This document shows positions 28,878-30,320 of a DNA stretch of 64,000 nt, piece by piece (position 1 is the stretch's first letter; each line of letters starts with the position of its first letter). The notes beneath the pieces are model-generated. The model did not search any database and was not told where the DNA came from. It saw only the letters and a program-made list of their open reading frames with translations. The stretch spans positions 124,001 through 188,000 of the forward strand of contig JAKLKO010000001.1 of NCBI GenBank assembly GCA_023150615.1. The letters run 5' to 3'. Both the position numbers and the translations under genes were made by a program. The stretch is from Phycisphaerae bacterium. GTDB taxonomy: Bacteria; Planctomycetota; Phycisphaerae; UBA1845; UTPLA1.

Positions 28878-30320
28878 TCAGGCGTTTTCCTTCGGTTCGT
28901 TCGAGAGGATGCCCAGCGCTTCCATCCGCCGGTAGAGCCGGCTTCGCGATACGCCCAGCAGGCGCGCGGCCTTGTTGCGCTGACCATCGGCGCGGCGCAG
29001 AGCGTTCAGAATGGCGTCGCGCTCGACCCGCGCCAGGACGGCGTCGAGCTGCAGCGGCTCGGTCGATGCCGGCGGAGCGCCCGGCGCCGGCGGGCCATCG
29101 CCACGGATCGACCCGGGCAGGTCGGACGCTTGCACGATCGGTCCGCGGCGGGCGGCGAACGCAGATTCCAGCACGCTGTTGAGCTCGTCGACGTTTCCCG
29201 GCCAATCGTGATTCGTCAGCAGGTGCATCGCACGCGGGGAGATCTGCAAGACCTCGATCCCGGCGGCGGCCGCGAGACGGTCAAGCTGCAACCGGACGAG
29301 GAAGGGGATGTCCTCGCGGCGCTCGCGCAGCGGCGGCACCTCGATCGGCACGACGTTCAGGCGGTAGTAGAGGTCGCGCCGCAGGGCATTCGTGCTGACC
29401 GCGTCGAGCAGATCGCGCGCGGTCGCGGCGATGAGACGGACCGGCCTTGCGCGACCGCCGGGGTCGCGCAGCAGCCCGTCGGCCGCATCGCGAAGCCCAT
29501 CGACCAGGCGGACCTGCGCTGCCGGCGGCATCGAGCAGATCTCGTCGATGAAGAGGGTTCCGCCGCCGGCCGCCGCAAGAAGTGACGGCGCTTCGCCGTC
29601 GTTCGCCGGACGCCACTCAAGGGCCGCGGCGACCCGATCCGGTGCGAGCACACCGGCGTGAAGCACGACGAACGGGCCATCCTTCTGCCGGCCGTGCCGA
29701 TGAATGGCCTGGGCGATGGCCTCCTGCCCGCAGCCGGGCGGGCCGCTGATCAGCACGGGAAACGGGGAGGCGATCGCGGCGCGCATCTTCTCGTAGATGG
29801 CCTGCATCTTCGGCGATCGGCTGATGAAATCGTCGAAACCGAACCGGCCTCGGAGTTGCTCGCGGAGCTGCTCAACCTCGTTCCTGAGGGACGCGGCGGT
29901 GGCGATCAGCTCGTCTTCCTGAGCGCGGCGGTCGCTCACGTCGCGCATGACGCCGATGATCAGCTCGGGCTTGCCGTCGCGGTCGAAGAGGGGCGAGTAG
30001 TCGGTCTCGATCCAGACCGTCGTGCCGTCCTTTCGCGTCACTCGCATTTCCTGCCGGATCGTCGTGGAGGAGTCGCGATGGAGCAGGTGTTTTGCCGGGC
30101 AGAGAGCGCCGGTCAGCGAGCGTTCATGCCGGTCGTGACATTCGACGATTTCCCCGCAACCACAAATGGACCCGAGCACGTCGGCGCGGGAGTAGCCGGT
30201 GATGCGTTCGCACCCGGCGTTGAAATAGACAAACCGCAACTCGCGGTCGAGGACGAAGACGCCTTCGACCGTCGATTCCAGGATCCGATCCGCTGAGAGC
30301 GCAGCGTGCGCGCCAGTCAT
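28878..30320 (-). CDS. PAS-AAA+-Fis regulator, degenerate sigma-54 activator type
   Basis: A 480-residue regulator. Residues 1-125 are a PAS domain (DRILESTVEGVFVLDRELRF) with a Cys cluster (CGCGEIVECHDR, then LCPAKHLL). A coiled linker and AAA+ domain follow. In the AAA+ domain the Walker A is GPPGCGQEA, with Gln for the essential Lys, and the GAFTGA loop that contacts sigma-54 is missing; Walker B GGTLFIDEICSM and the sensor/arginine-finger segment LRRDLYYRLNVVPIEVPPLR remain. The C-terminal Fis helix-turn-helix is NKAARLLGVSRSRLYRRMEA. GGAGGA 7 nt before ATG 30320 decides the start over GTG 30356. It likely binds DNA but probably cannot activate sigma-54 by ATP hydrolysis. Confidence 0.88.
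   Translation of the reverse strand: MTGAHAALSADRILESTVEGVFVLDRELRFVYFNAGCERITGYSRADVLGSICGCGEIVECHDRHERSLTGALCPAKHLLHRDSSTTIRQEMRVTRKDGTTVWIETDYSPLFDRDGKPELIIGVMRDVSDRRAQEDELIATAASLRNEVEQLREQLRGRFGFDDFISRSPKMQAIYEKMRAAIASPFPVLISGPPGCGQEAIAQAIHRHGRQKDGPFVVLHAGVLAPDRVAAALEWRPANDGEAPSLLAAAGGGTLFIDEICSMPPAAQVRLVDGLRDAADGLLRDPGGRARPVRLIAATARDLLDAVSTNALRRDLYYRLNVVPIEVPPLRERREDIPFLVRLQLDRLAAAAGIEVLQISPRAMHLLTNHDWPGNVDELNSVLESAFAARRGPIVQASDLPGSIRGDGPPAPGAPPASTEPLQLDAVLARVERDAILNALRRADGQRNKAARLLGVSRSRLYRRMEALGILSNEPKENA

Follow-up and report, generated by a model that had tools for sequence, protein, structure and literature searches.

Several bEBPs in which GAFTGA is missing or altered, namely TyrR, DhaR, HupR, VpsR and the NtrC proteins of R. 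capsulatus and Caulobacter, are reported or believed to act at sigma-70 promoters, and the available portions of the two sources on them (PMC3162934, PMC10274813) contain no series in which the AAA+ domain is excised. The family described here was found starting from a 64,000-nucleotide stretch of DNA from a Phycisphaerae bacterium (contig JAKLKO010000001.1), called the window in the following, and it shares with these proteins, as far as those portions describe them, the bEBP architecture and the loss or alteration of GAFTGA. It differs from them in that P-loop, Walker B and sensor residues, and in relatives the whole AAA+ domain, are lost, and in its position beside a methyltransferase. PpsR/CrtJ and RegA/PrrA also combine a sensor domain with a Fis-type HTH without AAA+, and they are redox-linked; however, they do not come from a locus of the window type, and to our knowledge no relatives of theirs with dead AAA+ intermediates have been described.

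For Fis itself, descent from NtrC has been proposed (Morett and Bork 1998, as cited in the available part of PMC7166090). According to the available part of PMC12316311, only GAFTGA-bearing activators were retained there, a requirement that would exclude most members of the present family. Loss of GAFTGA is thus already known case by case, while the series of intact, dead, excised and HTH-only forms at shared loci appears to be new. A series linking GAFTGA loss to the origin of Fis at shared loci was not found in the literature, as judged on titles and the openings of abstracts and with subscription journals thinly covered.

The regulator and its motor motifs

The regulator gene lies at 28878..30320 on the minus strand (ORF, Pfam and motif alignment) and has an ATG start and an unbroken frame of 480 aa, encoding a Cys-PAS domain, a dead AAA+ domain and a Fis-type HTH. 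The Pfam models PAS, Sigma54_activat, AAA_lid_14 and HTH_8 all exceed their cut-offs, with 101.3 bits against 20.2 for Sigma54_activat, which confirms the PAS–AAA+–Fis order given in a preliminary description of this DNA. The PAS domain covers approximately residues 8–135 (29916..30299, minus strand; Pfam and domain HMM) and contains the cysteines C53/C55/C61/C74 (30096..30164, minus strand; PAS alignment), a cluster that had been pointed out in the same description. An alignment of 36 PAS rows, one of them from the outgroup, shows the three main cysteines in 28; the member G040, whose PAS was not recognised, was left out of these rows. The Fis-type HTH, with SRSRLYRRMEALGI, is located at 28908..29036 (minus strand; Pfam and HTH alignment). 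The neighbour nadC (30584..31483, plus strand, from the annotation) starts at 30584 and is indeed divergent from the regulator, as had been claimed; it is kept in part of the window's family.

The Walker A remnant reads GPPGCGQE (29721..29744, minus strand; sequence and motif alignment), with Gln (codon CAG) in place of Lys, as seen in one assembly. At the GAFTGA columns the protein reads RPAND-----GE, a five-column deletion (loop site 29565..29624, minus strand; alignment), while Walker B FIDE (29541..29552, minus strand; motif alignment) and the arginine-finger region RRDLYYR (29361..29381, minus strand; motif alignment), with both arginine fingers in RRDLYYRL, are retained. Up to this point the motif reading agrees with the preliminary description. 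Two further lesions, absent from its list, were found: the sensor I Asn is replaced by Ala (ATA), and the sensor II Arg by Asp (WPGNVDEL; 29187..29189, minus strand; motif alignment). Nine other activators were found in the same genome, all with GxxGTGK, GAF[TS][GDS]A, DE and WxGN[VI]R, and one match to RpoN answers the question of whether the genome encodes this factor at all. The window protein has in this respect the bEBP architecture minus GAFTGA of the TyrR/HupR/VpsR kind.

Brucella NtrX carries a receiver where the window protein carries PAS. This NtrX (5m7n) is the best sequence and fold match of the window protein; the two share the AAA+ domain and the Fis-type HTH, and GAFTGA is absent from the aligned stretch of NtrX, but the Walker A Lys is present there (GPSGAGKE).

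Orthologues, short relatives and shared slots

The 114 genomes of the order were searched with a profile built from the window protein and 13 other members, which gave a full-length orthologue in 19 of them (matches of at least 367 bits, next best 345; at most 14 candidates were scored per genome, and misses are possible). GAFTGA is retained in two of the 19 (G004, G007) and lost in 17, and GAFTGA, Lys and DE are all present in only two. The Walker A Lys is found in 16 and lost in three, the Walker B DE is found in four (G004, G007, the window genome and G088) and lost in 15, and the sensor II Arg is found in 13. The preliminary description had proposed a comparison of orthologues for both features, and the outcome is divided: loop loss is shared, whereas none of the other orthologues has the Gln. 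Given this, and with the Lys standing in 16 of 19, the substitution in the P-loop seems to have come later, on top of an older loss. The sister of the window genome, G010, has the reverse pattern, keeping the Lys while DE has become DD and both arginine fingers are lost, whereas the window protein has lost the Lys and kept DE. Judged from these alignments, the motor loss in the window protein is not merely a local mutation.

In samples of the class (397 genomes) and of the phylum (392 genomes), in which at most four candidates per genome were scored and misses are possible, one clear extra member was found. This is G569, a full-length match of 469 bits with intact motor motifs and three PAS cysteines, which serves as outgroup. 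Of 13 other loci in these samples 11 were readable, and each of these shows both G[AS]FT and the Lys of Walker A; L104 and L105 could not be resolved. A contig scan for relatives of the window protein gave 22 loci of 29–35% identity, mostly over AAA+ and HTH, and the consensus with 15 of these aligned reads GETGTGKE and GAFTGA. The score alone is insufficient for placement in the case of G040, which has 367 bits against up to 387 for ordinary activators outside the order; it was placed in the family because its HTH, its methyltransferase neighbour and its position in the AAA+ tree fit.

The AAA+ domain is not only damaged in this family but also absent from some of its relatives. In six genomes of f1, the family of the window genome, the methyltransferase is preceded by a gene whose match to the regulator is confined to residues 1–149 or fewer and the C-terminal HTH, and Pfam on three of these six gave PAS and HTH_8 and no AAA. 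A profile from the six short genes was searched across the order and the regions were then examined (at most 24 candidates per genome, misses possible). This gave 16 PAS-HTH genes, seven in f1, eight in family f8 and a degenerate one in G022, together with one split across contig ends in G102. In addition, 13 HTH-only ORFs were found, not counting the G102 half. Ten of them sit in one slot behind fbp (FBPase) in f8, and that of G055 adjoins the methyltransferase, with no fbp within the examined stretch; the ORF of G087 and a second one in G022 have other locations and are more divergent. The G087 ORF (L209:2023-2166, 150 aa) has a related HTH preceded by a CPKCG zinc-finger-like stretch, and its contig differs from that of its methyltransferase. 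When the short-form profile was applied to the class sample (at most seven candidates per genome, misses possible), 44 of the 397 genomes matched, 42 of them in the order, and the other two match in the PAS part only.

The HTH-only relatives resemble Fis in being small proteins with a single recognisable domain: six representative ORFs have 85–91 aa, with starts chosen by us, and HTH_8 was matched by all four tested. The window protein, in contrast, is full length, and any Fis-like architectural role of the relatives is putative. The stretch SRSRLYRR is identical in all 49 in-order HTH rows and differs in the outgroup, part of this invariance being selection, because that helix was already in the profiles by which the rows were collected.

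The different forms occupy the same places in the chromosome. Among the 17 f1 genomes the regulator is intact in two, dead in two and of the PAS-HTH form in seven, and none was found beside the methyltransferase in six. At the ten f1 loci with nadC in the examined stretch (ca 3 kb off in G007), the corresponding numbers are two, two and two, with four in which none was found beside the methyltransferase. The fbp slot of f8 comprises 24 loci, with PAS-HTH at eight (G102 included), HTH-only at ten and the methyltransferase without a regulator at six. Because no long form was seen among these 24, the series from intact protein to stub is assembled from two slots. A downstream gene in the fbp slot, gene Y (L191:2701-3261, L197:2305-2706), recurs in f8 and had no Pfam match in the two copies tested.

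The trees contain many weak branches, and they disagree in one respect. A quick AAA+ tree separates the family together with G569 from the rows of 23 other activators with an SH-aLRT of 99, and AAA+ is therefore most simply ancestral. Parsimony on the PAS+HTH tree (35 rows) gives at least six changes of AAA+ presence, and the starred branches alone force three changes of the PAS-HTH label. In the methyltransferase tree (64 rows) the window and G010 are joined (98/95) beside 15 other f1 rows (93/92), whose regulators are intact, PAS-HTH or absent. The two intact members are nested inside f1 in both the PAS+HTH and the methyltransferase trees, and if those trees are right, the motor has therefore died at least twice. 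In the AAA+ tree, however, they fall outside all dead members, between these and the outgroup, and taken by itself this tree is compatible with the motor having died only once. Faster change in the dead domains could be the cause of the clash. Domain replacement was also considered to account for the two intact motors, whose AAA+ domains group with the family.

We consider it likely from these comparisons that the window protein is a motor-dead descendant of a PAS–AAA+–Fis sigma-54 activator, now working as a PAS-sensing DNA-binding regulator at non-sigma-54 promoters, and it is best read as standing midway on a path of reduction from an NtrC-type activator to a Fis-like protein. The motif losses, the orthologue family with its differing lesions, the absence of AAA+ at the same locus, the HTH-only forms and the methyltransferase linkage are established at the level of sequence. 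The preliminary description had proposed a DNA-binding regulator without ATP-driven activation of sigma-54, and this part of it is well supported at the sequence level, by the GAFTGA loss in 17 of 19 orthologues and by the AAA-less relatives that keep PAS and HTH. The regulator is probably dimeric. Its Cys-PAS triad may sense redox state or a metal and thereby alter DNA binding directly, the signal being relayed to DNA through the helical segment and the HTH. Without GAFTGA and the P-loop Lys, no sigma-54 open complex would be formed, and regulation would take place at other promoters, as is reported for the NtrC proteins of Caulobacter and R. capsulatus and for TyrR, DhaR and HupR.

The adjoining DNA methyltransferase

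The conserved downstream neighbour of the regulator, which the preliminary description had passed over, is an N6_N4-type DNA methyltransferase (27844..28707, minus strand; Pfam, NCBIfam and structure matches). It matches PF01555 (N6_N4_Mtase) with 142.7 bits against a cut-off of 26.7 and is distantly related to the CcrM and YhdJ models and to RsrI structures. It stays, however, under the NCBIfam equivalog cut-offs, with 88.6 bits against 830 for CcrM. A close methyltransferase (at least 192 bits) is present in 63 of the 114 genomes of the order, including all 17 of f1. The methyltransferase is solitary; no restriction enzyme is among its annotated neighbours (nucleoside phosphorylase, nadC, biotin ligase).

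If the regulator is motor-free as described above, the methyltransferase operon may be among its targets and would be the likeliest local one. Alternatively, the linkage could be an inherited position only, with the true targets elsewhere, and we regard this as a possible but rather unlikely situation. According to domain HMMs, 16 of the 19 long members are followed at no more than 400 bases by a methyltransferase gene of the same orientation (that of G060 being truncated), and it adjoins 11 of the 16 PAS-HTH genes, the contig of G077 ending before the slot becomes visible; such close and co-directional placement argues against mere inheritance. So do 16 of the 30 junctions, in which a possible start overlaps the stop of the regulator as NTGA, although only four of these 16 starts are ATG and later starts are also present in most junctions. 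In the window there is no overlap, the methyltransferase starting 170 bases past the regulator stop. In favour of an inherited position, G030, G036 and G018 have a long regulator without an adjoining methyltransferase, and eight fbp-slot loci keep the HTH-only gene without it, their genomes also being without a close methyltransferase. Since these eight loci and many methyltransferase loci stand alone, regulator and methyltransferase are mutually dispensable, and because the HTH-only genes outlive the methyltransferase, the motor-free regulator probably has other targets as well.

The two genes also separate among close relatives. In the same-genus pairs G076/G031 (PAS-HTH) and G097/G095 (HTH-only), the methyltransferase is present in one member of each. 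The f8 sister species G108 and G109 (99/98), of one genus, differ at the fbp slot in the opposite sense to each other, L208 (G108) having the HTH-only gene without the methyltransferase and L225 (G109) the methyltransferase without that gene.

An exact-dyad search was made in the stretches before 51 regulator loci and 35 methyltransferase-only loci and in the 26 of 30 junctions longer than 60 bases, with ten rounds of first-order resampling as background. This brought up no operator-like dyad that is widely shared, most top dyads occurring in few stretches against 0–1 expected. The largest excess with five-base arms was GGCGG-N13-CCGCC, present in six of the 35 methyltransferase-only stretches against 0.0 expected, in sequences that are related and partly coding.

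Fate of the dead motor

The other alternatives concern the regulator itself. The dead AAA+ domain might persist because it serves as a platform for oligomerisation, or because it enters the rings of the intact activators as an inhibitory partner. Structure prediction still gives the window protein an AAA+ fold, with NtrX, ZraR, DmpR and NtrC1 as the best Foldseek matches. The AlphaFold model has a pLDDT of 78 and a pTM of 0.50, and its Cys loop 55–73 is undefined and uninformative on metal binding. For two pairs from family f5 the dead AAA+ domain is constrained as much as PAS, and it may therefore keep a role there. In G033/G045 its dN is 0.0195 and its dS 0.180, giving a dN/dS of 0.11 (PAS 0.10, methyltransferase 0.125), and in G026/G039 the values are 0.242, 0.902 and 0.27 (PAS 0.26, methyltransferase 0.33). 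Relatives entirely without AAA+ speak against a platform or partner role, as does the AAA+ branch of the window protein, which has a length of 1.41 against a median of 0.41, and we find this option unlikely for the protein at hand. On the retained ring shape proposed in the preliminary description the evidence is divided, with the AAA-less PAS-HTH relatives on one side and the two constrained pairs on the other.

The same long branch, together with the several lesions in one protein and the six of 17 f1 genomes that have no regulator beside the methyltransferase, would fit a gene decaying towards loss and functionless in the window genome. Its frame is nevertheless unbroken and its PAS cysteines and HTH are conserved, and relatives of the dead-motor, PAS-HTH or HTH-only kind persist with dN/dS well below 1. 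For the HTH-only pairs, three of ten were usable and gave ca 0.10–0.15, rough values since dS exceeds 1.2, the rest being saturated or undefined. Simple decay thus appears improbable.

No convincing sigma-54 (−24/−12) promoter was found near the genes, intact members included. The best scores of the scan, 10 positions out of 12, belong to L189 and L208, both AAA-less, and were treated as chance and not as promoters; upstream of the three intact members it gave 6–8 of 12. RpoN, the nine intact activators and the retained Walker B and arginine fingers could be cited in favour of a protein that continues to activate with sigma-54 by means of an unusual loop and P-loop. This is highly improbable when GAFTGA, the Walker A Lys, the sensor I Asn and the sensor II Arg are lost together and such a promoter is not seen nearby.

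Returning to the motor-free regulator, the intact, dead, PAS-HTH and HTH-only forms may be steps of one reduction path. There is in our estimate an even chance that the two slots, which share the PAS-HTH stage and the methyltransferase, preserve a series from an intact activator over a dead motor and PAS-HTH to a Fis-sized HTH-only protein with an unchanged recognition helix, that is, Fis-like proteins arising by domain loss, coupled to the control of a solitary epigenetic methyltransferase. What is observed here seems to be a switch that is changing its way of working. The family makes it possible to test what role a bEBP takes on when it no longer depends on sigma-54, and whether the stripping of an NtrC-type regulator can give rise to Fis-like proteins. 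The tie to the methyltransferase, close relatives of which occur in 63 of the 114 genomes, would, if true, suggest that DNA methylation responds to the environment.
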